Source: a bacterium
Lineage (GTDB): Bacteria > Actinomycetota > Acidimicrobiia > Acidimicrobiales > CATQHL01
Assembly: GCA_028824415.1 (NCBI GenBank)
Contig: JAPPDX010000078.1
Coordinates: 1-37,067 of the forward strand
DNA: 37,067 nucleotides
Reading direction: 5' to 3'
A model generated the notes under the pieces. The model searched no databases. It was not told the DNA's origin and saw only the letters and a list, made by a program, of their open reading frames with translations. The translations under genes and the position numbers were made by a program. Every line of letters starts with the position of its first letter. The stretch's first letter is position 1. This document shows positions 1,501 to 25,817 of this stretch, one piece after another.

Positions 1501-1608
1501 ATCGCACACCGCCTCCTGCACCACGCCCATGTCGTCCTCACCGCCGGTGACAGCATCCGCCTCACCCAAGCCACCGCCGGAAAGGGGCTGACGCCACTGA
1601 CCAACTGA
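1500..1608 (+). pseudogene. IstB (IS21 helper ATPase) C-terminal fragment
   Basis: The plus strand reads HRLLHHAHVVLTAGDS, then IRLTQATAGKGLTPLTN and a stop at 1608. I recognise this as the C-terminal tail of IstB-type AAA+ helper proteins of IS21 elements. Only about 36 codons remain. The fragment joins IS110 sequence at about 1500, so one element was truncated by the other or by a later deletion. The downstream 1609-1690 sequence is the corresponding IS21 end. Confidence 0.6.
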
Positions 1609-1690
1609 ACCGCGGGCAGAACACCTGGCCGCCACCGGGCAGTTCTACTGTCCGCCACCGGGCAGAACCCACTGGCCATTGACAAGGGGG
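1609..1690. repeat. IS21-like terminal sequence, inverted copy at 3661-3750
   Basis: This stretch contains short repeats of a CCACCGGGCAG-type motif. Its reverse complement closely matches 3661-3750, including the shared core TGTCAA(T/C)GGCCAGTGGG and the GTTCAGTTGGTCAG segment adjoining the IstB stop. Multiple short terminal repeats are characteristic of IS21-family ends. The two copies lie in opposite orientation, about 2 kb apart, around the AbiEi-type gene. Confidence 0.6.
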
Positions 1691-1755
1691 TCTGCGCCCA
1701 TCGGAGGCCCTCACCAACAGCGGCGCCGCGGCGCGCGCGGAGCGATGACGAGCCC

Positions 1756-1775
1756 GGTGTAAACGCGTTTACACC
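1756..1775. promoter_or_regulatory. 20-bp perfect palindrome, LacI-type operator candidate
   Basis: The core TGTAAACGCGTTTACA is extended by two base pairs each side to a perfect 20-bp palindrome. The half-site TGTAAACG resembles operators of the LacI/GalR regulator family. No LacI regulator or clear downstream gene is present in this window, so the regulated gene is unknown and the site may be a relic. Confidence 0.4.
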
Positions 1776-1823
1776 CAGGGGCTGCGGAGCGACAAAGGCA
1801 CCCGAACACTGTCCGAAGCCACG

Positions 1824-1868
1824 CGTGTTAGGTCACTTACAGGTGACGTGTTAGGTCACTTACAGGTG
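1824..1868. repeat. 22-bp direct repeat, two copies
   Basis: The 22-mer beginning CGTGTTAGGTCACTTACAGG occurs at 1824-1845 and again at 1847-1868, separated by one base. It lies between the palindrome at 1756 and the hairpin at 1870. It could be a binding-site pair or a duplicated insertion-sequence end. Confidence 0.75.
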
Positions 1869-1869
1869 T

Positions 1870-1908
1870 CGCCCGGGGCCGCAGAGCGGCGCTCTGCGGC
1901 CCCGGGCG
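1870..1908. other. strong GC hairpin (18-bp stem, 3-nt loop)
   Basis: The arms 1870-1887 and 1891-1908 are perfectly complementary around a GGC loop. There is no T-run on either side, so a classical intrinsic terminator is not supported. It directly precedes the 42-bp tandem array. Confidence 0.75.
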
Positions 1909-1939
1909 AGCAATGATCATGATCGTAGGTGCTTCGGCC

Positions 1940-2083
1940 GAGCAACCCGCAGGAACGATATCTGTCGCAATATCCCCGGGCGAGCAATGCGCAGCAACGA
2001 TATCTGTCGCAAAATCCCCGAGCGAGCAATGCGCAGCAACGATATCTGTCGCAATATCCCCGAGCGAGCAATCCGCAAAAACG
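1940..2083. repeat. 42-bp tandem array (iteron-like), about 3.4 copies
   Basis: Units run 1940-1981, 1982-2023 and 2024-2065, with a partial unit at 2066-2083. Each contains a GAGCAATGCGCAGCAACG-like start and the AT-richer core GATATCTGTCGCAATATCC. Units are nearly identical and have no unique spacers, so this is not a CRISPR. All frames stay open because 42 is a multiple of 3. Local GC is lower than in the surroundings. An iteron or partition-site role is possible but unproven. Confidence 0.75.
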
Positions 2084-2219
2084 AAAAGCCGGCCTGGAAC
2101 GCTCAAAAACCGCGAAAGTCGCAAAGACAACACACCGGAATAACACAGAACATCTCGAAAGGCCGGTCCTCGCCGCTCCCCCACCGCGCCCCGCGAAACC
2201 GCCCCTACCAGGGAGAATG

Positions 2220-2250
2220 TGTGAGATGCCGCCGCAGGCGGCATCTCACA
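2220..2250. other. hairpin (14-bp stem, 3-nt loop)
   Basis: The arms 2220-2233 and 2237-2250 (TGTGAGATGCCGCC and its complement) flank a GCA loop. It lies downstream of the minus-strand AbiEi-type gene and could end or stabilise that transcript, though no T-run follows. Confidence 0.6.
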
Positions 2251-2501
2251 GATGTGTGGGGTGATCATCTACAGCCGCTAATCGGGCGAGGGTGTGACGG
2301 AGCATGGCGTCGCGTGGCTCGTGAGGGCGAGGGTGTGCGGGGGACTCGGGAGTCCTAGAGCCTGGATCCGTGGCTCGCGTGGGATGGTGGGTGTCATGTG
2401 GAGCTGGTCTGGGATCTGTGGATGGGGCTGGCTCTGGATGCGTGTCTCGGCATGGGTGACATGACCACCCATCGCCGGCGGTGCAGGTTGTTCTGGGCGG
2501 T

Positions 2502-3335
2502 TCATCCGGCGATCTGGTCGGCGAGCGCATCAGGCGTCGTCCACCAGGCCACCCGCCGAGCCTCATCGGACCATCCCCCTGGGTATCGTGCTGCGGCGCG
2601 GCTGGTCAGGTCGATCCACCGATCGCCGCGGCCCGGCGCTGCGTCCAACTCCAACCACTCCTCAGCGGGACGCACGAGCAGCTCCCCAGCCGGGGCGGTC
2701 CGGGCCAGGCCCGCAGCAACGGACGCGATGCGACGCAATCCCGCGCGCCAACCCAGCCGCGCCGCCAACTCCTGCACGCCGGCGGCAGCGAACGCGTCGC
2801 CGCCCCAACAGATCGCGTACCCGATGTACTCCTCGCAGCGGGGAGCGCTGGCGGGGTACTGAGCGCATTCCAGCAGCGCCCGGTCCGGGGTAGAGACCGC
2901 AGTCCGCTCCGTGAACCAGCGGGCGCCCACGCCGAAGACGTTCTCGCTCTCGCGCACGTGCAGCACGCCCGCCGAGCGGACCCGGGCACCGGGACGCGAC
3001 GTCGTGACCACCGTCAGCGGGAACGTCAGCGGGATCCCCGCCGCAGAGAGCCCGCTGAGATAGCCCAGGCGCCGCACCCCCGGCCCGAAGAGCCCATCCA
3101 ACAATCTCTCCACCTCCGGCACCCACAGCCCCGGCGGCGTGTCGCTGGTCGCCGGCGGCGGCGACGTAGAGGCCGGCTGCTGCCACCACCCATGTCCCAA
3201 ACGGCGCAGGTGGCCACGCTCCGCCAGCCGCCGCAGCGCCCTGGAGGCCGACGAGGGCGCGACACCAGCAGCCTCGCGGTACTGCGATGTCGCGAAGGTC
3301 GCCGGCAGCGCCCCAAGAACCGCTTCAGCATCCAT
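2502..3335 (-). CDS. AbiEi-type antitoxin / winged-helix transcriptional regulator (orphan)
   Basis: A 277-residue protein starting MDAEAVLGALPATFATSQYR. Residues about 8-50 form a winged helix-turn-helix-like segment (TSQYREAAGVAPSSASRALR, then LRRLGHGWW). The rest resembles the body of AbiEi-like type IV antitoxins: PTFPLTVVTTSRPGAR-like strands and a VSTPDRALLEC motif. In that family the protein represses its operon and neutralises an AbiEii nucleotidyltransferase toxin. The ATG at 3335 is preferred over the longer frame because it sits at the HTH boundary. The stop overlaps a downstream ATG (2505), but the 75-residue Pro-rich frame there does not look like AbiEii, so the toxin appears to be missing. 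IS21 debris flanks the gene on both sides. Confidence 0.6.
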   Translation of the reverse strand: MDAEAVLGALPATFATSQYREAAGVAPSSASRALRRLAERGHLRRLGHGWWQQPASTSPPPATSDTPPGLWVPEVERLLDGLFGPGVRRLGYLSGLSAAGIPLTFPLTVVTTSRPGARVRSAGVLHVRESENVFGVGARWFTERTAVSTPDRALLECAQYPASAPRCEEYIGYAICWGGDAFAAAGVQELAARLGWRAGLRRIASVAAGLARTAPAGELLVRPAEEWLELDAAPGRGDRWIDLTSRAAARYPGGWSDEARRVAWWTTPDALADQIAG

Positions 3336-3660
3336 ACCTGAAATGTACACCTCGGGCGAGTGAGCGGCTGTCCCCCACCCCAGTCCAGGGACACTCCCGG
3401 TCGTCACATGCCGCCCCCCTTCTCGCGTATTCCTCGCACTCTGCCCCTCTCGGCCCGCCCCCGGCCGGGAACCTTGACGAGCCGAACTCCTCCTCGACGT
3501 GATGGAAGACCGCCCGGTGGCCCCAGACGCCGCTCTCCAGCCGCTCGGGGCCGTTGTGCGACCCCGGCCGCCCGCGGCGCTCCTGAGCCGTGCTGGCTCG
3601 ACTCAGGGGATTCTCCAGAGCCGCTCGATCCCCCACCACGCCGCTCAACTCCGCCAAACC

Positions 3661-3840
3661 ATGTCAACGGCCAGTGGGATCTGCTCAGTGGCGGCCAGCA
3701 GAACTGCCCGCCAGCGGCCAGGTTTTCTGGCCGAGGTTCAGTTGGTCAGCTGCATCACTCCCCGTCGGCGTTGGCTTGGGGCAGGCGGGTGCTGGCGTCG
3801 GCGTGGCGAGGCCTCGCGATCTGCTCAACGTCATCTGGAC
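3661..3840 (-). pseudogene. degraded IS21 end with IstB C-terminal trace
   Basis: This is the second, inverted copy of the IS21 end at 1500-1690. The terminal part (3661-3750) matches well. Beyond it, the minus-strand frame matching the IstB tail is broken by substitutions, with only a trace of the terminal LTN-stop. The rest of 3336-3900 carries the upstream region of the AbiEi-type gene and no convincing gene. Confidence 0.5.
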
Positions 3841-3901
3841 GACCCCATGTGGACGGGGGTCTTCGGAGCGCTGCGACGTGTTGGCGTGTACTGTTCGCGG
3901 T

Positions 3902-4041
3902 GCCGTTGAACGTCGGGGTCTTGCCGGACTCCCACTAGTGCGACCGTCTGCGGGGAGGACCTTTCCCGGGGCTCCCTTTGGAGGGTCGCGTGGGCGTTGA
4001 ACGGCGGTTGAGGTCCGTTTCGCGCCGAGGGGAGCCGCTCC
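3902..4041 (+). promoter_or_regulatory. structured 5' leader RNA candidate, copy 1
   Basis: This 140-nt leader ends at the GTG start of the 14-repeat RCC1 gene and is clearly homologous to 13311-13450, which precedes the second RCC1 gene. Predicted elements are an outer stem (GCCGTTGAACG at 3902 with CGTTGAACGGC at 3994, one mismatch), an internal hairpin with a TTGCCG loop, a GCGACC/GGTCGC stem (3940-3945 with 3984-3989), and a GGGGAG/CTCCC hairpin. The 3' end carries a GGGGAG ribosome-binding site. One base pair in the TTGCCG hairpin changes from C-G to T-A between copies, which is compensatory. No known riboswitch class could be assigned. Confidence 0.55.
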
Positions 4042-6291
4042 GTGAGCACCGCCGATCCCGCCGAGCCCGCCCTTTCCGAGTTCGTTGCCCGCCGCCCGTC
4101 CGCGACCGCGCCGGTGGCACCGCGATCGCGGATTTGCCGCGCGCGTCCCCGCCGCGTAACGAGGAGCGGCCTCGCTGCGGCTGTGGCGGTGGTGGCGGTG
4201 CTCGCCGCGGTGGCGGTGTCGTCGCCTGTCGCGGCGCAGTCGGGGGATGATCGCTCCGATGAGGTGCGCATCGTGGCGCGTCGGCTCGCTGATGCACGTC
4301 TCGAGTTCGGCCTGCAACAGCGCGACGCTGGGGACTCCTGGGGCGAGCGGATGCTGCCCACTCAGCGTTTCTTTCCCGCCGACGCCGCGGTGGACCGGTG
4401 GTTGCGGAGTTCGCCGCTGACCGTCCGCGTCGCCGCGTCGGGCGATGAGGACGCCGTCGACGTGGCGGTGCGGATCGTGGCCCGCAAGGTCGCCGACGGG
4501 CGGGTGGAGTTCGGCCTGCGCAAGGTCCAAAGCGACGGCACTCTCAGTGGCACCCTCCTGCCGCGGTCGCGTTTCTTCCCCACCGACGCCGCCGTCGGGC
4601 GGTGGCTGCAGAGCACCCCCGTCTCGGTGACGACCACCCGGCCGGCCAGCGCGGCACCCACGACACCGACCGCGCCGGAGCCCGCGCCGGAGCCTGCGGC
4701 CCGGTACACCGGCGTTGCTGCGGGCTATGCGCACGCCTGTGCGATCGGCTCTGAGGGGTCGGTGGTCTGTTGGGGCGACAACTCCGCGGGCCAGGCGAGC
4801 CCCCCGCCGGGACGGTTCAGCGCCGTGACCGCCGGCGCCTGGTACTCCTGCGCCCTGCGCACCGACGGCGCCATCGCCTGCTGGGGAGAGTCCGACGCCG
4901 TGGCGGAGACGCCAACGAGCGGGCAGTTCGAAGCGGTCGCCGCGGGCTCCTCGCATGCCTGCGCGGTCCGGACAGGCCAGACACTCACATGCTGGGGCAA
5001 CAACGACGACGGCCAGGCCGACGCCCCCGGCGGGCAGTTCGCGGCGGTCGGCGGCGGCAACTTTCACTCCTGCGCCCTGAGCACCGGCGGCACCATCACG
5101 TGCTGGGGCACCGACCCCCACGGCATCTTCGGCCAGCTCGACGCGCCGAGCGGCCAGTTCACCACCCTGTCGGTCGGCAACGCACACTCGTGCGCCCTGC
5201 AGGCCGACGGGACCGCCGCCTGCTGGGGCAGCAACGACACCGGCGAAACCGATCTCCCGTCGGCGCAGTTCAGCGCCGTCGCCGCCGGCGCATCACACAC
5301 CTGCGCCATCCGCACCAGCGGGACGATCGCCTGCACCGGATGGAACTCCGACGGCCAGGCGGATCCCCCCGCCGGGCAGTTCAGCGCCGTCGCCGCCGGC
5401 GGACGCCTGTCGTGCGGACTGGGCACGGACAGCGGCATTCGCTGCTGGGGCCTCGACGTGGCGGGCCCATGGGGCGGGCAATTCACCGCCATCGACGCGG
5501 GAGACGCGCACCTCTGCGGCCTCGGCGCCGACGGCACCGTCTCCTGCGCCGGAGCAGCCGGTCTCTTCGGCCAGTCTGAGGTTCCCGAGGGGCGGTTCAT
5601 CGCGGTCGCCGCCGGTGACCGCCACTCGTGCGGGGTGCGCGCCGATGGTTCCATCGCCTGCTGGGGCAGCACGGCGTACGGCCTGTTGAACGCCCCCACC
5701 GGGGAGTTCAACACCATCGCCGCCGGCGGCTGGCACACCTGCGCGTTGCGCAGCAACGGGACCGCCACCTGCTGGGGTTCGGGTCGCTACGGCGAACTCA
5801 GCCCCCCGCCGGGTGCCTTCAGCGCGCTCGCCGTCGGCTGGTGGCACGTCTGCGGCCTGCGCAGCGACGCCAGCATCGCCTGCTGGGGATCCAACAGCGA
5901 AGCGCAGACGGCAGCACCGGAGGGGAACTTCCAGGCGATCGCCGCCGGCCGGTCGCACTCCTGCGCGCTCCGCAGCGACGGCACCGTCACCTGCTGGGGC
6001 AGCAACCGGTACGGCCAGACCGACGCCCCCAGCGGGGAATTCACCGACATCACCGTCAACGACTGGCACTCATGCGCGCTCCGCACCGACGGCACCGTCA
6101 CCTGCTGGGGAAACAACCCCGACGAAGACTTCGGCCAGGCCGACGCCCCCGAAGATCGGTTCACCGCCGTCACCGCCGGGAGGGGATTCACCTGCGGCCT
6201 GCACGAAGACGGCACCGCGCGTTGCTGGGGCCGGTCACCGTGGACCGCGATCCCCAGCGGCGCGGAGTTCGCCAGCGGCCGGCCTGCGTGA
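4042..6291 (+). CDS. secreted/anchored protein with 14 RCC1-type beta-propeller repeats
   Basis: A 749-residue protein with a long basic N-terminus and then a hydrophobic segment around residues 44-68 ending in VAAQS (signal peptide or anchor). Residues about 73-120 and 148-195 are two copies of a small domain with the pattern RIVAR..ADGRVEFGL...LP..RFFP.DAAV.RWL.S. After a Thr/Pro/Ala linker come fourteen units of about 38 residues of the type F.AVAAG..HSCALR.DGT..CWG, characteristic of RCC1/BLIP-II-like propellers. Fourteen units suit two seven-bladed propellers. Most blades carry two Cys (SCALR and CWG), possibly one disulfide per blade. The start is a GTG behind GGGGAG in the structured leader. 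The next small gene overlaps its stop. Likely role: extracellular binding or interaction; the ligand is unknown. Confidence 0.8.
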   Translation: MSTADPAEPALSEFVARRPSATAPVAPRSRICRARPRRVTRSGLAAAVAVVAVLAAVAVSSPVAAQSGDDRSDEVRIVARRLADARLEFGLQQRDAGDSWGERMLPTQRFFPADAAVDRWLRSSPLTVRVAASGDEDAVDVAVRIVARKVADGRVEFGLRKVQSDGTLSGTLLPRSRFFPTDAAVGRWLQSTPVSVTTTRPASAAPTTPTAPEPAPEPAARYTGVAAGYAHACAIGSEGSVVCWGDNSAGQASPPPGRFSAVTAGAWYSCALRTDGAIACWGESDAVAETPTSGQFEAVAAGSSHACAVRTGQTLTCWGNNDDGQADAPGGQFAAVGGGNFHSCALSTGGTITCWGTDPHGIFGQLDAPSGQFTTLSVGNAHSCALQADGTAACWGSNDTGETDLPSAQFSAVAAGASHTCAIRTSGTIACTGWNSDGQADPPAGQFSAVAAGGRLSCGLGTDSGIRCWGLDVAGPWGGQFTAIDAGDAHLCGLGADGTVSCAGAAGLFGQSEVPEGRFIAVAAGDRHSCGVRADGSIACWGSTAYGLLNAPTGEFNTIAAGGWHTCALRSNGTATCWGSGRYGELSPPPGAFSALAVGWWHVCGLRSDASIACWGSNSEAQTAAPEGNFQAIAAGRSHSCALRSDGTVTCWGSNRYGQTDAPSGEFTDITVNDWHSCALRTDGTVTCWGNNPDEDFGQADAPEDRFTAVTAGRGFTCGLHEDGTARCWGRSPWTAIPSGAEFASGRPA

Positions 6292-7279: not shown

Positions 7280-7440
7280 CTAGCGGGGGTGGTAGTCGCC
7301 GGCGAGTTCGCCGAGATCCAAGATGGCCATGCAGCCGTCCCGGCCGTCGTGCGCGAGGCCGAACACGTCGGCGCCGGCGAGGCGGTCGTGGTTGCGTTGG
7401 TTCCAGTGGCCGTGGAACACGAGGCGGGGTTCGCGTGGCG
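7280..7440 (-). pseudogene. calcineurin-like metallophosphoesterase, C-terminal stump
   Basis: The minus strand reads PREPRLVFHGHWNQRNHD, then DVFGLAHDGRDGCMAILDLG and a stop at 7280. The GHxxxR motif followed by a V.GL-type strand and an ILDL ending is the typical last part of calcineurin-like metallophosphoesterases. The upstream catalytic motifs (GDxHG, GNH) are missing: only low-complexity GC sequence (about 7440-7520) separates this from the next gene. The gene has therefore lost its N-terminal three quarters. Confidence 0.55.
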
Positions 7441-7523
7441 GCCGGCTTGGTGGGCTGGGGCGGGACGGGGAGCGCCGGGCGGGCACAGAAGGGGGTGTCT
7501 GGCCCGCCCGACCGGTGGGGGTT

Positions 7524-8621
7524 TCAACGGCGCAGTTCACAGGCGATCGCGTCGGCGCCATCGCGGGCAATCGCGGTGAGCGTCGCCGCGGGCAGCTCTT
7601 CGAGCGTCTCGCTGACGCCGAGGATCGCGGTCTCGTCGCTGTCGAGTTGTCGCTTGGTCAGCAGCCGCCCGAAGTAGGGGGTCCCGCAGATCCGGCAGCT
7701 CCGGCCGCCCTGGGAGAGGTACACACCGGGGCGGCCCCAAGCGTGGACCCTGATCGGCGCCGCCACGTCACCGGCTCCGATCTCGAATCCGCAGCAGATT
7801 CGTGTCTGGTCGGGCCAGATGAACTCGGTGGGACCGTCGCCGTAGTCCAGGACCATGCGGTACAGGGTCAGTGCGGCGTCGCCGGCCAGATACTGCTCAA
7901 CCAGTTCGGCAGGGGTGAGTTCCACGCGGGCCCGCAGCGGCCCCCATCCGTAGCGGCACACCGCGTAGGGGTCGCCGTCGACGCCGCCGACGGGGGTCCA
8001 GTCGTCCAGGGCGTCCCAGGCCGGGGGGCCCGACGCGATCGCCTCGGCGACCGCCGCCAAGTCGAGCTCGTACAGGTCGCTGTCGGAGCGGAACCGGTCC
8101 CACAGCGTCTGCGGAGCCTTGTCGCGGTCTCCGAACTCGTCGCCGACGTGCACGAAGTCGGCGCAGTCCCGCAGCAGCGCCGCGACGTCGCTGCGCAGGC
8201 CGGCGTTGAGGTGCGCCGCCAACTCGCCGAGGGTCGCGTCGGCGAGCGCTGCCTCGTCGCGCAGCTCGCTCACCGGTCGAGGCCACCCAGCGGCGTTGGT
8301 GTCGGTGAACGGGTCGAACCGGAAGTTCCACCTCGACCACCGCCACCCGTGCCGCCCGAAGCCTCGATCGTCGCGGCTCAGCGCGGCGCCAAGCACGCCG
8401 GGCCGCTGCTCGGCGACGGCCAGCACGGTGCGCTGCTTGCGCTCGTCGTCCTCGTTGTCGTCGCTGTCGACCGCGGCGTCGTCGGGATGCACGAAGTGCC
8501 AAAGGTGACGCAGGCCCTGAGCGAGCCGCTCCTCGGTCTTGGCGCTGAGCGCCAACACCGCCTCCTCCGGCGTAGACACCTCGACGCCAATTGAGCCTGT
8601 CCGGCCATCGATGATCCGCAT
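7524..8621 (-). CDS. hypothetical protein, 365 aa
   Basis: A soluble, acidic 365-residue protein starting MRIIDGRTGSIGVEVSTPEE. The start is supported by a strong GAGAGGAGATCAT ribosome-binding site immediately upstream. Visible features are a negatively charged stretch around residues 50-62 (DSDDNEDDE), an aromatic-rich WRWSRWNFRFDPF segment around 94-106, and a CRICGTPYFGR motif near residue 310. A second Cys pair (ICCGFE) lies about 40 residues upstream, so a metal site is possible. No signal peptide or membrane segment is seen. No family is recognised. It lies upstream of, and on the same strand as, the phosphoesterase remnant and the 160-residue protein, and may have shared an operon with them. 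Confidence 0.6.
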   Translation of the reverse strand: MRIIDGRTGSIGVEVSTPEEAVLALSAKTEERLAQGLRHLWHFVHPDDAAVDSDDNEDDERKQRTVLAVAEQRPGVLGAALSRDDRGFGRHGWRWSRWNFRFDPFTDTNAAGWPRPVSELRDEAALADATLGELAAHLNAGLRSDVAALLRDCADFVHVGDEFGDRDKAPQTLWDRFRSDSDLYELDLAAVAEAIASGPPAWDALDDWTPVGGVDGDPYAVCRYGWGPLRARVELTPAELVEQYLAGDAALTLYRMVLDYGDGPTEFIWPDQTRICCGFEIGAGDVAAPIRVHAWGRPGVYLSQGGRSCRICGTPYFGRLLTKRQLDSDETAILGVSETLEELPAATLTAIARDGADAIACELRR

Positions 8622-9086
8622 GATGATCTCCTCTCGAATTGGGGAACCGGGGCCCGCAAGCTACGAACCCCCACCCCGCCACAAGCGTCCCCCGAACCGT
8701 TCTCGAACCGTCGCGAACACCGCCCGACCCCGCCGACCTCGCGGCGCCCTCCCCCACCCCGCGCGCGGTCCCGAAGGGTCCTCCCATCATGAGGTCGGCG
8801 TGCGCCGCGGCGATCCCGGACCAGACAGCAACCAGAAACCGTCGCTGTCGGCGAATCGCCGACCCAACCCGGCGACACGGCCAGCGTCACCCGTCGGCGT
8901 GTCGCCCTCACCCGGCTCGCGGCGCCAGCCATGGACTGCTGGGTGGACCGTCCGAGTTCTCCCCAGCCGCGCGCTCCGCCGCGGCCTAGACGCGGCGACC
9001 ACGCAACCGCGGAGTCAAACCACGGCGGCCCTCAGCGTGGTGGCGCCCTGGAACCAGAACACGCCCCGGCGCTGGAGAACCGGCGG
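8622..9086. other. intergenic region, probable promoter of the 365-aa gene
   Basis: This 465-nt gap holds the ribosome-binding site and presumably the promoter of the minus-strand gene. It includes a direct repeat of CGAACCGT (near 8693 and 8705) that could be an operator. The remainder is GC-rich and open in several frames, but no frame shows a recognisable protein or start signal. Confidence 0.4.
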
Positions 9087-9863
9087 CTACGACGGGTTGT
9101 AGCTGCCGGGGAATCGCCGGTCGAAGGCGGCGGCGAGTTCAGCCTGACCCTCCGGCGGGGCGGCGATCGTCTGTGCCGCCTCGGCCTCTTCGGAGGTCCC
9201 GCTGGCGGCGGCTTCTTCGTCGAGGCGGGCGCTGCGGAGGAGTTTGTAGATGGTGCTGCGGTGCCAGCGCCCGCCGCGGGGGGTCTCTATTCCCTCCGCG
9301 GTGAGGTGGTCGGCGATCTGCTGGAACGTCTTGCCGGCGGTGCGCAACTCCCCCACGAGGCGACGCGCCTCAGCGGAGTGCTCGACTGGTCGACCAAGGC
9401 GTGTGCCGCCGGCTTGGGCGGCAGCGATTCCGGCACGGGCGCGGGTACTGCGCCAGCGGTGTTCCACCCGGGCGGCTTCGGCGAGCAGCGCCGCGGCAGT
9501 CTCGCCGCTGTCGGAGGGCAGTTCGAAGCCCTCTTCGACCACGACGATCACCCAGCGCTGTCGATAGCTGCGCTCGACCAGGTCGGCCCAGACCCGCACG
9601 CTGTGGCTAACCCGATCCAGTCGGGCGACCACGAGCGCGCCTGCGTCGCCACCGGCGAGATCCACAAGCGCAGCACCCAGCGCGGGCCGCTCGTCAGGAA
9701 CGACTGAGCCGTCGATACGCCTATCGAGTGCGGCCGCGTGTATGCGCCAGCCCCGCTCGGCGACGGCTGCGGCAAGGGTGTCGTACTGCGCCGCGAGCAT
9801 CAGAACGTCTCCGACCAGTTCCTCGCGAGAGGCGCGCGCATAGGCGATGGCGCCGACGCTCAT
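9087..9863 (-). CDS. serine recombinase (resolvase/invertase family)
   Basis: A 258-residue protein from the ATG at 9863 (MSVGAIAYARASREE). The YARAS motif holds the expected catalytic Ser and preceding Arg of resolvase/invertase enzymes. Further blocks are ERPALGAALVDL and VVARLDRVSHS (family consensus LDRLxR), followed by a helical arm around TRARAGIAAAQAGG. A C-terminal helix-turn-helix (FQQIADHLTAEGI, then TPRGGRWHRSTIYKLL) binds DNA. The second Arg of the LDRLxR motif (Arg71 in gamma-delta resolvase) is His here, which may reduce activity. The catalytic domain is N-terminal, unlike IS607 TnpA, where it follows a MerR-like HTH. The gene is divergent from the ParA operon across an AT-rich gap. 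Confidence 0.75.
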   Translation of the reverse strand: MSVGAIAYARASREELVGDVLMLAAQYDTLAAAVAERGWRIHAAALDRRIDGSVVPDERPALGAALVDLAGGDAGALVVARLDRVSHSVRVWADLVERSYRQRWVIVVVEEGFELPSDSGETAAALLAEAARVEHRWRSTRARAGIAAAQAGGTRLGRPVEHSAEARRLVGELRTAGKTFQQIADHLTAEGIETPRGGRWHRSTIYKLLRSARLDEEAAASGTSEEAEAAQTIAAPPEGQAELAAAFDRRFPGSYNPS

Positions 9864-10100
9864 GAGCCGCAATCTAGCGATGCCTCGAGAGGAGGTTGGA
9901 AGTCGTTGATGTTTACTATATATTTGTTTTATCACCAGTCAGCGAGCGCCGCGGCTCCCACGATCGAGCGACTCCGACCGCGCAGGCCATCCAGAGGACG
10001 CGCACGGCGGACACGCACCGCCCGTATCCCTCGCTTCCAACGAGGTAGGTGACGGCCGCTGGGCGGTCGCGCAGCGGGTCAGCGAACCAAGGGAGGACAT
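9864..10100. promoter_or_regulatory. divergent promoter/operator region with nested inverted repeats
   Basis: An AT-rich island at 9907-9934 stands out from the GC-rich surroundings and probably carries the recombinase promoter, and perhaps that of parA. Closer to parA are a hairpin CCTCG-7 nt-CGAGG (10029-10045) and an outer inverted repeat ACCGCCC (10017-10023) / GGGCGGT (10061-10067). ParA partners of the ribbon-helix-helix type usually bind sites just upstream of their operon, so this is the natural place for a centromere/operator. A GGGAGG ribosome-binding site is at 10091-10096. Confidence 0.45.
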
Positions 10101-10976
10101 GTGCCTAGAGTCGTCGCGTTCGTGAGCGCGAAGGGCGGTGTCGGCAAGACGACACTGTGCGCCAACTTCGCGGCTCAGGCGGTGGGGCGTGTGCACCCCG
10201 AGCGCGTGCTGGGCGTCGACCTGGATCCCTCCGGCGACCTGGCGTGGGACCTCGGCTACCGCGGCGAGCCACCCGACGACGAGGGCGCCGCGCTCGCAAA
10301 CGCGCTGTTGCGCGGCGCGACGCCTCCCCCGGCTCCGATCGGGCTCTGCGGTCTGGATGTCCTCGCCGGCGGGCCGCGTCTGCGCTTCGCGACAAACGTC
10401 AAGGCCTCTCTGGCTTCTGACGCCGTCGGCGCGCTCGCCGAGCTTCTGCGGAGTCTCTCCAGCGGCTATGGCCTCGTCGTCGTGGACTGCCCGCCGGGGC
10501 TTGGGGCGATGACCCGCTTGGCGCTCGCCGCCGCTGACGGCGTCGTCATCCCGACCCACGCGGATGACGCGTCGCTCGCTGCGATCGGAGCGCTCGCCCC
10601 GGTCTGGCGGGACATCAGAGCGCACCACAACGCCCGCCTGGCGCTGCTCGGTGTCGTACTGACGCAAGTGCCGAGCAAGTTGCGCCGCCTTGAGGTGCAA
10701 CTGCGCGACGACCTGCGCACCATCGGCGGGAGCCACCTGCGCGTGTTCCGGACCGTCGTTCGCGCCAATCTCGAGGCGGCTTGCGGGGCACGCCGGCTGG
10801 GTCTCACCGCCGACGAGTACGCCCACGGGGCCGCCCAGCACGCCGACGGCACCGACAGCGACGCGCGCATCCGCGCCGCTCGCGCCCTCGCCGACGACTA
10901 CCGGCACCTCACCGGCGAGATCCTCAACCGCCTCCACAGCCACCGCGCCTCGACCGCCGAGGGGGCCCGACCATGA
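10101..10976 (+). CDS. ParA/MinD-family partition ATPase
   Basis: A 291-residue ATPase. The deviant Walker A box KGGVGKTT (residues 11-18) with the signature Lys11 is intact. VLGVDLDPSGDLAWDLG gives the switch I/A' Asp, and LVVVDCPPGLG is the Walker B region. VPSKLRRLEVQL in the C-terminal half matches a typical ParA segment. ParA dimers bind DNA nonspecifically and position plasmids or chromosomal regions with a DNA-binding partner. There is no N-terminal HTH, so autoregulation probably depends on the next gene. The GTG at 10101 is preceded by GGGAGG. The stop overlaps the next start (ATGA). A stand-alone ParA of this length beside a recombinase suggests a mobile or plasmid-derived origin. 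Confidence 0.85.
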   Translation: MPRVVAFVSAKGGVGKTTLCANFAAQAVGRVHPERVLGVDLDPSGDLAWDLGYRGEPPDDEGAALANALLRGATPPPAPIGLCGLDVLAGGPRLRFATNVKASLASDAVGALAELLRSLSSGYGLVVVDCPPGLGAMTRLALAAADGVVIPTHADDASLAAIGALAPVWRDIRAHHNARLALLGVVLTQVPSKLRRLEVQLRDDLRTIGGSHLRVFRTVVRANLEAACGARRLGLTADEYAHGAAQHADGTDSDARIRAARALADDYRHLTGEILNRLHSHRASTAEGARP

Positions 10977-11431
10977 GCGTCCCGCACCGCCCCGGGCCGC
11001 CGCGCATCGACGCCGCCGCGTTCGCGCCGCCGCGCCCCAGCGACCCGCCGACAGCACCACCGCCGGGCTCGTCGCGCAAGAAATCCGTTGTCGTCTTGGT
11101 CGATGTGGACCTGCTTGTGAGGCTCCGGGCGCGTTGCGCCACGTGGCGGCGGTCCCCCAGCGAGGTGATCCTCACCGCCCATCTCGACCTCGCCGAGCGG
11201 CTCGGAGAGGAACTGAGACCAACTGCCGCCGATCAGCGGCGCGTCGCGTTGGGCCTGCCCCAGGCCGCCGCCAGAAGGCGCCTGGGCCCCGGCAAACCGC
11301 TGTCCCTGTGGCTGTCACCGGTGTCGCTCGCCGAACTCGACGCCGCCGCGGCGGCCGCCGACATCACCCGCCGCCGCTACATCACCGCGCTGGTCGAGGC
11401 TCTCCTCGCCCGGGCCGACGAACCGGCATGA
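10973..11431 (+). CDS. ParA partner protein, ribbon-helix-helix-like DNA-binding
   Basis: A 152-residue protein starting within the parA stop (ATGA, 10973-10976). After a disordered Pro-rich tail (residues 1-35), two similar segments follow. The first is SVVVLVDVDLLVRLRARCAT with PSEVILTAHLDLAERL; the second is LSLWLSPVSLAELDAAAAAA with RRRYITALVEALLA. Each has a short strand followed by two helices with the spacing of a ribbon-helix-helix or MetJ/Arc-like fold, so the protein may carry tandem DNA-binding modules. Small RHH proteins encoded directly after ParA (ParG, omega) act as centromere-binding and autorepressor proteins. I infer that role from position and pattern; the sequence match is weak. 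Confidence 0.55.
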   Translation: MSVPHRPGPPRIDAAAFAPPRPSDPPTAPPPGSSRKKSVVVLVDVDLLVRLRARCATWRRSPSEVILTAHLDLAERLGEELRPTAADQRRVALGLPQAAARRRLGPGKPLSLWLSPVSLAELDAAAAAADITRRRYITALVEALLARADEPA

Positions 11432-11523
11432 CCACACGTGACGCCAGCGCCGACGTGGCCGCAGCCCACCGCTTGGACCCAGCAGGCCGGGAGGCGCCCG
11501 GCGTGTCCCAGCAAGGAGCTGCC

Positions 11524-12993
11524 GTGAGCCCTTCGACGGTGCGGCGCATGGCCCCCGACCCGAGCGACGGGGCCAGGGGGGCCGCTGGTGGGCCTGTTGG
11601 GCTGGTGGCGTTCAAGTTCCGGCTGTATCCGTCGCCGGAGGCGGCGCGTCTCCTGGAGCGGTACGCGGCCACGGAGCGCGCGATCTACAACCGGGTCGTG
11701 GAGTACCAGTACGAGTTGCGCGCGCTGCAGCAGCGGCGGCGCCGACACGGCGGCCGCATGGGTTTGCCCCGAGCCGAGTTCGACTACAGCGACATCAACG
11801 CGTGGGCCAAAGCGGAGGCGCCGTGGCTGGGGGGGATCCCCGGAAGCGTGCGCTCCCAGGCCGAGCGGATCGCGTACCGCGCGCTCGTGGACTCCTTGCG
11901 CCTGCCGGGCCGACGACAGGCGAGGTTCCGCCGCCGCGGCGGCGGAACCGATGGGTTCTCCTGGCAGGCGGCGACCGCCTCCGGGGAGGTGCGCAAGATC
12001 AACAAGCGCTGGCACGAGGTGCGCCTGCCCCGAGCCCGCCGCGCGCCGGTGGTGTGGTGCCGGGTGCGCGTGGATACCGGCCGCGAGCCGCCCGCCGCCG
12101 CCTACCGCGCCGGCAAGGTGCTGCGCATCACCCGCGACGCGGCGGGCACGTGGTGGCTCACCATGACCGCGCCGGCGGCCCCTGAGCGGGCCGCGCCGGC
12201 CGGTTCGAGTTGTGGCCTGGACCTGGGCGTGATCCACACGCTGACCCTCGCCGACCACACCGGGCGGGTCCTGCACCTGAAGATGCCCCGACCGCGGTCC
12301 GACGCCAAGGCGCGGCGCCTCGTGGATCTGCAGCGCTCCCAGAGTCGCTCCCGCCTCGCCAACCCGTGCGAACAACCGCCGTGCCCCCACACAACGGGCG
12401 GCAGTTGTTGGCGGACCTCGCGCCGCTACCAGCAGCGCCGCCGGGAGATCGCGGTGCTGCGCCGTAAGGCGCGGCGCCGCGCCCGCAACTGGATCGAGAA
12501 GGTCACCACCCACATCGCCGACCGCTACCGCCTCGTCGGCGTGGAGGACCTGTCGGTGCGCGCCCTCACCGCGTCCGCGGCGGGCACCCTCGCAGCGCCG
12601 GGACGCAACGTCGCCGCCAAACGGAGCCTGAACCGGGGAATCCGCGAACAGCGGTGGGCGACGATCCTGCGCCGCCTCGACGACAAGATCACCGCCCGGG
12701 GCGGACAACTCGTGCGCGTCCCCGCCGCCAACACCTCCCGGCGCTGCCACCGCTGCGGCCACACCGCCGCCGCCAACCGCACCACCCGAGCGCTGTTCTG
12801 CTGCGTGGCGTGTGGCCACCGCGACGGCGCCGACGCCAACGCCGCACAGAACATCCACGACCTCGCCCTGCAAGGGCATCCCCCAGCGCGTGGGGGAACG
12901 GCCACGGCGCCCACAGGCGCCACGCCGGCCGAAACGGACGCCGAGGCCCGCCCCGAGGCGGCCGACGACGCGTCAATCACCCCCGCCGCCTAA
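11524..12993 (+). CDS. tnpB: TnpB, IS605/IS607-type RNA-guided nuclease
   Basis: A 489-residue TnpB from the GTG at 11524, preceded at good spacing by AAGGAG (11513-11518). An in-frame ATG at 11428 overlaps the previous stop and would add 32 residues. The canonical TnpB start (VAFKFRLYPSPEAARLLERY) lies about 28 residues in. All three RuvC acidic residues are present: D233 (GLDLG), E341 (GVEDL) and D437 (DGADANAAQN). The zinc ribbon (C408xxC411...C427xxC430) is intact. Between RuvC-I and RuvC-II an extra Cys-rich insert (PCEQPPCPHTTGGSC) is seen. TnpB uses an RNA from the element's 3' end to cut matching DNA, favouring element retention. No TnpA transposase of the Y1 type is adjacent; the gene instead follows ParA and its partner in one operon. 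Confidence 0.88.
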   Translation: MSPSTVRRMAPDPSDGARGAAGGPVGLVAFKFRLYPSPEAARLLERYAATERAIYNRVVEYQYELRALQQRRRRHGGRMGLPRAEFDYSDINAWAKAEAPWLGGIPGSVRSQAERIAYRALVDSLRLPGRRQARFRRRGGGTDGFSWQAATASGEVRKINKRWHEVRLPRARRAPVVWCRVRVDTGREPPAAAYRAGKVLRITRDAAGTWWLTMTAPAAPERAAPAGSSCGLDLGVIHTLTLADHTGRVLHLKMPRPRSDAKARRLVDLQRSQSRSRLANPCEQPPCPHTTGGSCWRTSRRYQQRRREIAVLRRKARRRARNWIEKVTTHIADRYRLVGVEDLSVRALTASAAGTLAAPGRNVAAKRSLNRGIREQRWATILRRLDDKITARGGQLVRVPAANTSRRCHRCGHTAAANRTTRALFCCVACGHRDGADANAAQNIHDLALQGHPPARGGTATAPTGATPAETDAEARPEAADDASITPAA

Positions 12994-13080
12994 CCACCCG
13001 GCGGCGAGGAACCCGACGACAACCCGAGACACACAACGACGCCGCGCACAGCCGCGGCAGCTGTCTCGGCGACCGTCGGC
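12870..13080 (+). ncRNA. possible omega/reRNA region at the tnpB 3' end
   Basis: TnpB guide RNAs normally derive from the 3' end of tnpB and the adjoining element end. Here the 3' coding end, which encodes a non-conserved tail after the RuvC-III motif, folds into at least two hairpins: CCCCCA-GCGCG-TGGGGG (12880-12896) and GGCGCC-CACA-GGCGCC (12906-12921). The 310 nt from the stop to the structured leader at 13311 contain no gene. The RNA and its guide boundary are inferred only from family knowledge and position; no element end could be fixed. Confidence 0.3.
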
Positions 13081-13310
13081 GAACGCGAGATGTGGGGATT
13101 CGGTTAGCAACTCCCCCACCAACCCCCCTCGCGGGGCCGGACACACCGCCGGCGCCAAGCTCTCCGCGCCGAGGAGGCTCAACGGCGCCGACAGAACCAC
13201 GAGGCGCCGCGCCGGCGCTAGCCGGGGCGCGCCCAATTCGACGGGCGATCCCCTCCTCGGGCGATTGCGGCTCTCAGTGGCCCCCACCGGCGGCGTGTAA
13301 TCTCTCGGTT

Positions 13311-13450
13311 GCCGTTGAACGCCGGAGCCTTGCCGGGCTCCGCGGAAGCGACCTGTTTGCGGGGAGGACCTTTACCGGGGCTCCCTTCGGAGGGTCGCGT
13401 GGGCGTTCAACGGCAATTGAAGTCCGATCCGCCCCGAAGGGAGCCACCCC
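13311..13450 (+). promoter_or_regulatory. structured 5' leader RNA candidate, copy 2
   Basis: Homologous to 3902-4041. A perfect 13-bp outer stem pairs 13311-13323 with 13402-13414. Inside lie a GGAGCC-TTGCCG-GGCTCC hairpin (13324-13341), a GCGACC/GGTCGC stem (13348-13353 with 13393-13398) and a GGGAG/CTCCC hairpin. The 3' end carries an AAGGGAG ribosome-binding site before the GTG at 13451. The leader sits upstream of another secreted RCC1-repeat gene, so the pairing of leader and gene type is conserved within the window. It could be a riboswitch, a protein-binding leader or a translation-control element. Confidence 0.6.
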
Positions 13451-13582
13451 GTGAGCACCACCGAACCTCCCGAGGTCGCCCGCGCTGACAGCCACGCTCG
13501 GCGCCCGACACCCACCGCGGCCACGCCGACCGCGCCCGCCCGCGCATCACTCGCCGCGCGCCTGGACGAGGCCCGGCGATGA
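13451..13582 (+). CDS. 43-aa leader ORF upstream of the RCC1 lipoprotein
   Basis: Starts at a GTG with AAGGGAG upstream and reads MSTTEPPEVARADSHARRPT, ending ARLDEARR. Its stop overlaps the ATG of the lipoprotein gene (ATGA, 13579-13582). The start context and first residues match the N-terminus of the 14-repeat RCC1 protein (MSTADPAEPA...ARRPS) encoded after leader copy 1. It is therefore either a conserved translated leader whose end feeds ribosomes to the next gene, or the detached N-terminus of a once-continuous gene. It has no signal peptide. Confidence 0.5.
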   Translation: MSTTEPPEVARADSHARRPTPTAATPTAPARASLAARLDEARR

Positions 13583-14679
13583 GCGACGACAGCGCCGCTC
13601 CCGGAGACGGGGCGAAGATCGATTTCGAGGCGATGGGCGACTGCCCATCGATGTCGAATGCGCGTCGGCTTCGCCACGTCGTCGTGCTGCTGGTGCTGGT
13701 GCTGTTGGGATCGGCGTGCGGCGGCGAGCCTGAGCCTGAGTCCGGCGCCGAAGCTGGCGCGCAGACCAACGCGTCGCGGGTCGGCTCGGGGTCCGAAGAT
13801 GCGGGCGATCAGGGGCCGAACTCCGACGCCGGGACCTCGCCCAGGGCCACAAGCTCCGAACCACCACCCCCACCCACGACCATCGACGTCGCCTTCAGCC
13901 CTCTCAGCGTCGGCGGGGGCCACTCATGCTGGTTGCCTGGTGACGGCACCATCACCTGCTGGGGCGACAACCGCCACGGCCAGCTCGAGGCGCCCGACGG
14001 CCAGTTCACCGCCGTCAGCGCCGGCGCGGCTCATTCGTGCGGCGTGCGCGGCGACGGCACCGTCACCTGCTGGGGAGGCAACGACGACGGGCAGACCGAT
14101 GCGCCCGACGGCGTGTTCCGCGCCGTCAGCGCCGGCTGGGGCCACTCGTGCGGCGTGCGCGGCGGCGGCACCATCACCTGCTGGGGCGACGGCCGGCAGG
14201 GCAAGCTCGAGGCCCCCGACGGCCAGTTCACCGCCGTCAGCGCCGGCGACCGTTTCTCCTGTGGGCTGCGCACCGACGGCACCGTCACCTGCTGGGGAGG
14301 CAGCGGGTTCTGGGGGCCGCCTACTCCGCCCGACGGCGTCTTCACCGCCATCAGCGCCGGCACAGAGCATTTCTGCGGGGTGCGCGGCGACGGCACCATC
14401 ACCTGCTGGGGCCACGACTCCTCCGCGAAGACTCGTGCGCCCGACGGCGCATTCACCGCCGTCAGCGCCGGCGACAACCATTCCTGCGGGGTGCGCTCAG
14501 ATGACACCATCACCTGCTGGGGCGGCTACATGGGCAGAAGGACTGTCGCACCCGACGGACAGTTCACCGCCGTCAGCGCCGGCGACGACTATTCCTGCGG
14601 GGTGCGCCCCGATGGCACCATTGCGTGCTGGGGCGAAAACATCAACTACCGGAACGCCGATACGCCCGGGCAAGGCTAA
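13579..14679 (+). CDS. lipoprotein with a 7-repeat RCC1-type propeller
   Basis: A 366-residue protein. Residues about 30-52 form a signal segment (RHVVVLLVLVLLGSACGG) with a lipobox-like Cys, so it is probably lipid-anchored outside the membrane. An acidic, Ser/Pro-rich linker follows to about residue 97. Exactly seven units of the type F.AVSAG..HSCGVRGDGTITCWG then fit one complete seven-bladed propeller, with two Cys per blade. The start ATG overlaps the stop of the 43-aa ORF, indicating translational coupling under the structured leader. The next gene begins 42 nt downstream and may be co-transcribed. Function: probably extracellular binding; unknown partner. Confidence 0.8.
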   Translation: MSDDSAAPGDGAKIDFEAMGDCPSMSNARRLRHVVVLLVLVLLGSACGGEPEPESGAEAGAQTNASRVGSGSEDAGDQGPNSDAGTSPRATSSEPPPPPTTIDVAFSPLSVGGGHSCWLPGDGTITCWGDNRHGQLEAPDGQFTAVSAGAAHSCGVRGDGTVTCWGGNDDGQTDAPDGVFRAVSAGWGHSCGVRGGGTITCWGDGRQGKLEAPDGQFTAVSAGDRFSCGLRTDGTVTCWGGSGFWGPPTPPDGVFTAISAGTEHFCGVRGDGTITCWGHDSSAKTRAPDGAFTAVSAGDNHSCGVRSDDTITCWGGYMGRRTVAPDGQFTAVSAGDDYSCGVRPDGTIACWGENINYRNADTPGQG

Positions 14680-14721
14680 AGCACCCACAGCGCCAACCAG
14701 ACCCATCGGAGAGCAGCGACG

Positions 14722-15657
14722 ATGATCCGACGAGGGGCCATGGCGGCCCTCGCAGCAGTCACAGCCGGGGTGCTGGCATTCGCCGCGCCGTCGGTGGCCC
14801 ACAACGGCGAGAACCCCGCGGCGGCGTCGACGCTGCGGATCCAAGCCCGCCTCCTGGAATCCGGCAAGGTGGAATTCGGCTTACAACTCGACGGCGAGCG
14901 GACCTGGCTACCCCGCGCGCGCCTGTTCCCCTACCCCACCGCCGAAGCGGGACGCTGGCTGTTCTCCTCGCCCTACACGCTCAGCGACGGAACCGTCGCG
15001 CGCATCCAGGCCCGCCTGGTCGCCTCCGGCAAGGTGGAGTTCGGCCTGCAACTCGACGGCGACGAGGTGTGGCTGCCCCGAGCGCGGCTGTTCCCCTACC
15101 CCACCGCCGAAGCGGGACGCTGGCTGTTCTCCTCGCCCTACACGGTCCCGGTCAACGACGAGAGCACCGTGGATTCATGTGCAGATGCCGACGATCGAGA
15201 CTGCGCTCCCCCGCCGGTCGGCGACGCGATCGTCCTGTACGCATACCGCAGCTACGGCGACGCGAGGGCCTTCGACAACGACGACTTCGAGCCCTACGTC
15301 GACAGCGGGCTCGCTCATGACCCCGACGAGTACGGCTCCGCGCGCTCCAAGCCGATCCCCCTCGAGGTGGGCACGCGCATAGTCGTCCACTACCTCGACG
15401 AGCCGGACGACTGGGTGTACGCGTGGACCGAGTACGTCATCACAGGGTTCCCCGACAACGTCGAGCGATTCTCGGCCTGGCAGGACGAGGTGCACTACGT
15501 GGCGCTGTGCGCGACGCGGGATGCCGTCTACTACGGCGGCGAGGTCCTGCCGCCCGAGCCTGTGGGCCGCGAGGGCTACGCACTGGCGTACCGGGACGAC
15601 GACGGCCGTTACCGCCTCGACCTATGGAGAGGTGGCCGCTACGTGGGGGCGTGTTGA
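14722..15657 (+). CDS. secreted protein with two VEFGLQ-type repeats and unknown C-terminal domain
   Basis: A 311-residue exported protein with a clear signal peptide (residues 1-27, ending APSVAHN) and a GGAGA ribosome-binding site. Residues about 37-87 and 92-144 are two near-identical units: LRIQARLLESGKVEFGLQLD, WLPRARLFPYPTAEAGRWLF and SSPYT. The same module occurs twice near the N-terminus of the 14-repeat RCC1 protein. The remaining 165 residues are acidic and aromatic, with Cys at positions suited to disulfides (SCADADDRDC, ALCATRD and a C-terminal GAC), and match no family I recognise. Its position after the RCC1 lipoprotein suggests a shared surface function. Confidence 0.65.
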   Translation: MIRRGAMAALAAVTAGVLAFAAPSVAHNGENPAAASTLRIQARLLESGKVEFGLQLDGERTWLPRARLFPYPTAEAGRWLFSSPYTLSDGTVARIQARLVASGKVEFGLQLDGDEVWLPRARLFPYPTAEAGRWLFSSPYTVPVNDESTVDSCADADDRDCAPPPVGDAIVLYAYRSYGDARAFDNDDFEPYVDSGLAHDPDEYGSARSKPIPLEVGTRIVVHYLDEPDDWVYAWTEYVITGFPDNVERFSAWQDEVHYVALCATRDAVYYGGEVLPPEPVGREGYALAYRDDDGRYRLDLWRGGRYVGAC

Positions 15658-16182
15658 TACTCCGAACCCACCGCGCCGCCCGAATCGCCCCGGGTTCGGC
15701 ATGCCCCGGACCTCGCCCGGTCAGATCGATTGACCCCGAGCCGTGACTGCGCTAACGACCTAGTCGCGGCAATCGCTGGGCCTTCGGGGGTCTACTTGAT
15801 CCGTCATCGCCGAAACTTGCCCGCGCCCTTCGCATATCGAGCGCAATAACCGAACTTGAGGATCTCACCGTTTCCCCTGGTCAGAGCCATACGCTGGCGA
15901 CTCATCTGTACCCCGAGGGGGTACGAGGCAGGCAGGCACAATCCCTGGCCAGGACGACTGGGGAATGACGCATCGTCGCGTCGGCGCCGCCAGGCTCGAT
16001 CCTTCTAACGGATCTCTTGTCGACCGCACCCTCCGGTTCAGGGGGGCATCTTGGCCGACGCACCACGAAGAGCGCGAGGCTCCGGCCACTGCGTCCTCGG
16101 GGCTACCGGACCCATTCGATCCTGCGAGAGCCCATGATCAGACGGCCCACACCGGAGGCACCCAACCGGATCAGATCGAGCC
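15658..16182. other. intergenic region with dispersed repeat A and duplicated segment
   Basis: This region holds dispersed repeat copy A (15831-15925) and the CTAACGGATCT(C/T)TTGTCG-like stretch at 16005-16022 that recurs at 24558-24575. A short inverted pair GTACCCC/GGGGTAC (15908-15923) lies at the end of repeat A. No convincing gene was found. If a HigB toxin once preceded the antitoxin gene, nothing recognisable of it remains. Confidence 0.45.
15831..15925. repeat. dispersed intergenic repeat, copy A
   Basis: About 95 bp containing CGCATATCG, AATAACCG and CCCCTGGTCAGAGCCATA, followed by GCTGGCGA and a GTACCCC...GGGG tract. Related copies occur at 24374-24477 (divergent) and 36203-36305 (close). 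All three are in the same orientation. Confidence 0.7.
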
Positions 16183-25660: not shown

Positions 25661-25817
25661 GCCCTCGCCGCCGAGTCTGGTTCCTTCCCGTCTCTGACGA
25701 TTCCTTTCAGAGCAACCCGAGAGCCCGCCCAAGTCGGGAAGTTGCTCACCACCTCCGCGGCGGACTCAGACACGGAACGTTGCGGCGAGACGGTTGGTCG
25801 AAGATTCCGGGGGAGTG

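Follow-up and report, generated by a model that had tools for sequence, protein, structure and literature searches.

A gene-free array, hairpin and conserved motif that recur with a ParA module in Acidimicrobiia: a candidate maintenance site

Partition systems of type Ib join a ParA ATPase to a ribbon-helix-helix (RHH) protein, as in pSM19035 (delta/omega/parS), TP228 (ParFGH) and pCXC100, and the stability region of pSM19035 includes a serine recombinase as well. The pSM19035 centromere is made of contiguous 7-bp repeats (PMC9499535) and type Ib centromeres lie upstream of the par operon (PMC5016525), as described in these papers; within the parts of the literature examined, we found no type Ib centromere 8–11 kb from its operon. 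Others have described srpMRC of the SXT/R391 ICEs, an actin-type locus whose presumed centromere immediately precedes srpM (PMC4489591).

The locus studied here (on a contig stretch of 37,067 nucleotides, analyzed whole as window 1–37,067) shares part of this organization. As in type Ib systems, ParA is followed by a small gene for a probable RHH protein, and a direct-repeat array lies on the same contig. Unlike in those systems, however, the array has a period of ~42 bp, its unit varies between loci, a conserved hairpin is added, the operon is 8–11 kb off, and two RHH units appear to be combined in a single chain of the small protein. The likeness to srpMRC is that of a plasmid-type partition locus on a chromosome-resident element, provided that the present contigs are integrated, as we infer. 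Three loci were compared—the window, a second contig of the same genome (C72) and a contig of the sister species G003 (C9)—with the C72 copy met on a contig that had been examined because its DNA matches the end of the neighboring AbiEi-like gene. These loci share one architecture, in which an array with no coding signal precedes a hairpin with a covarying stem, and all three are linked to ParA (Table 1). We propose, with a probability of roughly 0.37, that the array, second hairpin and motif (~1939–2460) serve the ParA module as a cis-acting site of maintenance, resembling a centromere or an origin.

Table 1. Features of the window, with positions, strand and the observations behind each assignment.
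Feature	Position	Strand	Basis or remark
3' end of IS21-type istB and IS right end (remnant), left block border	1508–1684	+	blastn, plasmid istB
Perfect 20-bp palindrome GGTGTAAACGCGTTTACACC, operator-like	1756–1775		Private to this contig
Doubled 23-mer	1824–1869	+	Two copies 96% identical; private to this contig
First hairpin, 20-bp perfect stem	1869–1909		Right arm shares sequence with 42-bp unit
42-bp tandem array, 3.5 copies, gene-free	1939–2084	+	91% matches; codon-position GC flat
A/C-rich, GC-poor spacer, locally low duplex stability	2085–2216	+	AT skew +0.62, GC 0.52 at 2046–2145
Second hairpin, 13-bp stem, GCA (CGCAG) loop	2221–2249	+	Common to three loci; stem covaries
Conserved motif TCACAGATGTGTGGGG (pattern TCACAGATGTGTGGNG)	2246–2261	+	Overlaps 3' arm of second hairpin, extends past it
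G/T-rich flank, degenerate repeats GGGCGAGGGTGTG at 2284 and 2325	2262–2460	+	Composition, repeats
AbiEi-like gene, right neighbor	2502–3338	-	PF13338 E 0.00038, below curated cut-off; 90% paralogue on C72
Second IS21-type right end, inverted, right block border	3661–3803	-	Sequence comparison
Gene A, without functional assignment	7524–8621	-	On all three contigs; no Pfam family at cut-off
Serine recombinase (resolvase/invertase type), 258 aa from chosen start	9087–9863	-	PF00239 E 7e-20; PHROG DNA invertase
ParA-type partition ATPase, 291 aa	10101–10976	+	AAA_31 E 1e-20; PHROG and PDB matches
Small gene, 152 aa, probable tandem ribbon-helix-helix	10973–11431	+	Overlaps ParA stop
TnpB-like gene, ~521 aa, start inferred	11428–12993	+	Overlaps small-gene stop; PF07282, PF01385, PF12323 in frame

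An array precedes each copy of the motif, with a period of 42 bp in the window, 43 bp on C9 and 42 bp on C72; C9 also has a 39-bp array on the other side of the element, and in the C72 array the core GTCGCGCG recurs at 21 bp as well (read by eye). The units differ in sequence among the three loci: the best unit similarity, between the window and C9, is marginal (10/300 and 11/200 shuffles were as good), and the C72 unit has no similarity to those of the other two. Codon-position GC is flat throughout (0.66/0.55/0.57 and 0.63/0.56/0.63 for two + strand ORFs over the 42-bp array; 0.68/0.64/0.67 for the 304-codon open frame in which the C72 array sits), and coding repeats were rejected on that ground. 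A CRISPR array was likewise ruled out, since the whole 42-bp unit repeats (91% matches) and not constant repeats with differing spacers. The original observation of a 42-bp array in gene-free DNA of lower GC is borne out (GC is 0.58–0.59 at 1801–2250 vs 0.69 for the window, and codon-position GC carries no coding pattern); as to whether such arrays lie inside coding genes of relatives, an outcome that would speak against the original reading of the cluster as typical of replication or transfer origins and of partition sites, the flat profiles at all three loci point the other way.

In 566 kb of the two species, the three loci included, six arrays of period 38–46 were found, four of them at these loci and two that fall within open frames (390 and 419 codons); 379 kb of the sister species G007, G006 and G001, in which neither the motif nor this ParA was found, hold two, which also fall within open frames (321 and 534 codons). 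A 36-bp array at 627–734 of the window (3.0 copies, 90% matches) lacks the motif and lies within an open frame of 303 codons whose codon-position GC is flat. It too looks non-coding, so gene-free arrays are not confined to the element, and this lowers our confidence in a maintenance site. Within the arrays no clear signal of A/T periodicity near 10.5 bp emerged, in a run made without a shuffle control.

The predicted site, at 1756–2083, had also taken in three further features, and these fared differently from the array. The palindrome is present and perfect at 1756–1775; the duplication is real, with a 23-mer (1824–1869, 96% identical) in place of the 22-mer first given; and the hairpin is real, with a stem of 20 bp and not 18 bp (arms 1869–1888/1890–1909, 100% complementary). 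As single-stranded DNA this first hairpin folds with a z-score of -7.8, and none of 200 shuffles was equally stable. Its right arm consists of sequence from the 42-bp unit (CCCCGGGCGAGCAATG at 1900, 1974, 2016 and 2058, with 0–2 changes), so the four features are not independent. Neither palindrome nor 23-mer has a match on C72 or C9 at up to 3 mismatches, the 23-mer has none elsewhere among the loci compared, and near the motif on C72 or C9 nothing corresponds to the first hairpin. Its arm, at up to 3 mismatches, occurs at 8 places beyond this stretch among the loci compared, two of which, on C72 and C9 (L093, L096), are single arms away from the motif. A search for the cluster elsewhere in the genome found no other copy of 1750–2090, only the self-match and the hairpin's own inverted match, and when the DNA from 1500 to 2600 was compared with plasmids, the best 20 of 53 records matched the istB end alone. 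Judged by this sequence distribution, the palindrome, doubled 23-mer and first hairpin are probably incidental. What recurs, besides the type of array, is a hairpin (2221–2249) and a motif (2246–2261) that fall beyond the end of the predicted site.

This second hairpin, which is followed by AGATGTGTGGGG, combines an invariant core with a changing stem. Across the three loci the CGCAG loop and TCACAGATGTGTGG are invariant, as are 15 of the 16 bases of the motif directly 3' of the hairpin, while 4 of the 13 stem pairs are changed on both sides and one pair is G-U (three sequences). In the same three sequences 97.4% of cells are paired, a value reached by 8 of 500 shuffles, as against 26–55% in slid controls. 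The window and C9 hairpins are close to one another; that of C72 differs. The base composition changes here too, with G+T at 0.64, 0.72 and then 0.55 in 100-bp bins from 2246, and the G+T switch at the hairpin amounts to 0.33 in the window, 0.36 on C9 and 0.26 on C72. Composition was checked at five weak places (2 of the 12 near-motif places given below and 3 weak covariance-model places). The switch was dropped as a signature, since it reaches 0.34 at L104, 0.32 at L106, 0.32 at C72:6943 and 0.35 at L162.

A search of 397 genomes of the order returned the exact pattern of the motif at 3 places, all in one genus—on this contig, C72 and C9, once per contig—and its reversed control at none. With up to 2 mismatches allowed, the 8 genomes sampled from the genus contain 15 places, 12 beyond the three, with 10 for the reversed control; a 22-base pattern at up to 3 mismatches returned this contig, C9 and a third place, in G040, with 3 mismatches. 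A covariance model (150 candidates scored per genome) gave no further strong match in the 8 genus genomes, and at three inspected weak places (near-motif or covariance-model) Tandem Repeats Finder reported one 12-bp repeat and no array of the ~42-bp type. A search of 60 relatives yielded one convincing match outside this genome, covering 2220–2265, in G003, besides weak matches at E 0.004–0.01. The pattern CGCAG N8-11 CACAGATGTGTGGNG was found in 5 stretches of GTDB, of which one is the sister genome's own record; the other four, which do not form this stem at the corresponding place, were taken to be chance matches. Viral contigs held no match to the pattern without its final NG, and among the matches listed in a literature search no publication names an element of array, hairpin and motif.

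Within the genus, the ParA family has the same distribution. At E <= 1e-35 in the 397 genomes, with at most 6 candidates scored per genome, ParA was found within the genus only on the three contigs that carry the motif, and beyond it in three distant relatives at 39–43%. The distance from motif to ParA is 7.8, 8.0 or 11.4 kb and the element is always on the operon's upstream side, with the motif on the opposite strand relative to ParA on C72. That two independent loci should each lie within 12 kb of one gene in a 3.2-Mb genome has a chance of ~1e-4 or less by a rough estimate, which shared residence in accessory DNA weakens; moreover, other genes are common to the three contigs (the full set being the serine recombinase, ParA, the small gene, the TnpB-like gene, gene A and RCC1-repeat proteins), and mere co-residence may therefore account for the linkage. 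ParA is 74–97% identical across the contigs. Specifically, the window and C9 share 97% in ParA and 95% in the small protein, both stand at 74% vs C72, and the serine recombinases are 71–74% identical in every pair (74% for the window vs C9). The grouping of the second hairpins thus follows ParA and the small protein, not the recombinase. The idea that a ParA operon 8 kb away could act on the predicted site gains from this genomic association as far as the array is concerned; the palindrome, 23-mers and first hairpin, having no counterparts, gain nothing from it.

A ParA gene does lie at 10101–10976, as predicted, and its product is a Walker-type ParA ATPase (PHROG ParA-like partition protein of phage, E 1e-38; PDB Soj/ParA, E 3.5e-23). 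The gene after it was predicted to code for an RHH-like protein and may well do so: a reading by eye and an AF2 model of low confidence (mean pLDDT 58.8), with two beta-alpha-alpha units, make it probably a tandem RHH protein. It has weak matches to RHH antitoxins and repressors; Foldseek returned nothing significant, the top rows being F-plasmid relaxosome chains (E 2.5) with RHH antitoxins lower. At none of the three loci do the ~250 bp upstream of ParA contain a short-repeat family of three or more copies; the contiguous short repeats that adjoin a type Ib operon are thus lacking there, and the centromere could be elsewhere. The TnpB-like gene directly follows the ParA/small-gene pair, and a homologue follows on C72 and C9 also. 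Gene A occurs twice on C72 (L031 2946–4070 and 1–313), flanking an AbiEi-like gene.

These distributions point to a maintenance site, in that motif and ParA are confined within the genus to the same three contigs and a gene-free array of ~42 bp stands before each motif copy; the evidence comprises three instances, two of them with a nearly identical hairpin. We hypothesize that one gene-free cis-acting site at ~1939–2460 belongs to a plasmid-like module made up of the serine recombinase, ParA, the probable tandem RHH protein and the TnpB-like protein, in accessory and partly defence-rich DNA. Its role would be DNA maintenance, either as a centromere, on which the RHH protein would nucleate and ParA would act, or, in another form of the same role, as an origin used by the DNA when excised or in plasmid form. 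The hairpin and adjoining motif would be the recognized core and the ~42-bp array a set of phased loading sites; the RHH protein or a replication protein would then bind at the site, and the module would replicate or segregate now or have done so in the past. Several observations argue against this proposal. The array unit varies while the small protein is 95% identical between the window and C9, and the 8–11 kb to the operon is unlike the adjoining centromeres of type Ib, both of which count against a centromere in particular; the opposite motif strand on C72, the lack of a Rep or relaxase among the scanned proteins and the distant ParA loci without such an array also count against the proposal.

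Those distant loci include pBD2 (Rhodococcus), pTC1 (Paenarthrobacter) and D35 (Curtobacterium), whose ParA relatives (36–41% identity, among the best 15 of 3852 plasmid records) came from a plasmid-only collection, so that their location on plasmids says nothing on plasmid specificity. In pBD2 and pTC1 the gene after ParA also reads as a tandem RHH by eye. Unlike the present loci, pBD2, pTC1 and D35 have no array of period 38–46 within 10–13 kb on each side, and the ParA locus of G206 has none either, arrays alone having been sought at all four; two further distant ParA contigs are too short to show whether an array is present or absent.

The best placed of the other explanations, while unlikely, is that the element is functionless debris, that is, repeats grown by slippage between IS remnants and carried along with accessory DNA. 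The block 1685–3660 lies between two inverted IS21-type right ends and resembles a degraded composite element; the istB remnant at 1508–1684 matches a plasmid IS21 istB at 74.6% (blastn) and C9 43302–43126 at 91.5%, and 85 bp of it match C32 at 89%. A palindrome, 23-mers and a first hairpin private to this contig, an arm of that hairpin built from array sequence, and the motif-free array at 627–734 that also looks non-coding would all fit such an origin. Slippage, however, leaves unexplained why three unlike arrays of near-equal period, in different surroundings, each stand before the same conserved hairpin and motif, and it leaves unexplained the compensatory changes in the stem.

It is quite unlikely, too, that the element is a single-strand processing site (an oriT or rolling-circle origin), at which a relaxase or HUH protein would read the hairpin and nick the 3' motif, with the array as the site of an accessory protein. 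As in such origins, a hairpin is followed by an invariant motif and adjoined by direct repeats; the motif directly 3' of it is held at 15 of 16 bases while the stem changes, the hairpin folds strongly as single-stranded DNA at the three loci (z -6.6, -4.6 and -3.5), strand composition switches at it in all three, and the small protein has relaxosome chains as its top structural matches, at a value that is not significant. Against this, the composition switch is not unique to the three loci and, in contrast to known origins of these kinds, no replication initiator, relaxase or HUH Rep was found among the 30 window ORFs (Pfam) and 28 ORFs of C72 and C9, which are part of the genes.

A stand-alone structured RNA or transcription-ending structure, in place of a DNA site, is more doubtful again. 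Structured RNAs often have a conserved loop and 3' motif, and the compensatory stem changes, the one G-U pair and the invariant loop and 3' motif would suit one. Yet Rfam 15 gave no match in the window at gathering score, no sigma-70-type promoter was matched (by a model that leaves organisms with other promoter types outside it), and the one terminator-like match is at chance level and located elsewhere. No T tract follows the hairpin, and the predicted flanking genes differ in orientation at each of the three loci, an arrangement hard to square with the leader, 3' UTR or terminator of any one gene; on these two grounds a terminator or UTR was rejected.

That the element is a recombination site (res, hix-like or att) of the serine recombinase, its 29-bp palindrome (13 + 3 + 13 bp) serving as a dimer site in multimer resolution or integration, is improbable, for although that gene lies between element and ParA on all three contigs and a single exact motif per contig is what a resolution site would give, the recombinases of the window and C9 are only 74% identical while their hairpins are nearly identical, the element is 6.8–10.4 kb from the recombinase gene, and no tRNA-derived repeat was found on the three contigs, the C72 island included.

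If the site does serve the ParA module, defence-rich accessory DNA of Acidimicrobiia has plasmid-style segregation gear with a remote, hairpin-centered site. This would give a handle on how, in bacteria known here from assembled genomes alone, such islands persist and move, and would offer a test case for a centromere conserved in spacing rather than sequence; a nick site would instead mark the transfer or replication origin of the islands. A bolder claim, which we hold to be a long shot, is that the element represents a new type of segregation or transfer site for accessory islands, acting 8–11 kb from a ParA/tandem-RHH/serine-recombinase module, in which the covarying hairpin and invariant 3' motif are recognized and the array is kept in period (about four helical turns) and not in sequence.

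The surroundings look accessory in character. The first 39 kb of C72 look like a defence-rich island, being mostly lower in GC3 than the rest, adjoining a tRNA-Leu and carrying AIPR, GmrSD, Mrr/ResIII and AAA_15 genes; C9 has Mrr and ResIII genes. In G004 an orthologue (87%) of the gene downstream from the C9 element has dissimilar DNA upstream of it, and this orthologous site shows neither a tandem array nor a strong composition switch; the element is thus not fixed in that place. Positions 8868–15919 of the window match C9 26148–33342 over ~7 kb at 92–98% and positions 7424–8737 match at 82%. Because this ~7 kb stands against an 82% flank and recombinases 74% identical, a recent exchange between the window and C9, with a joint near 10 kb, is probable.

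Three further observations concern neighboring genes. Upstream of RCC1-repeat genes (window 3883–4072 and 13289–13481; C72 6661–6908; C9 30557–30805) lie conserved leaders of ~190–250 bp with inverted repeats TTGAACGCC ... GGCGTTCAA, 78–83% identical between most copies, possibly structured 5' leaders. A 2504-codon open frame at 25794–33308 of the window is internally repetitive at the nucleotide level, with units of 264 bp (x3.6) and 432 bp (x2.4), and has 27/54-bp glycine-aspartate-rich repeats near its end. On C9 (L014 8494–13644), a 1717-aa protein combining exonuclease (RNase_T), Helicase_C_2 and DEAD/Helicase_C parts is followed by a UvrD-like gene, and a broken partial copy lies at C9 72.0–73.8 kb.
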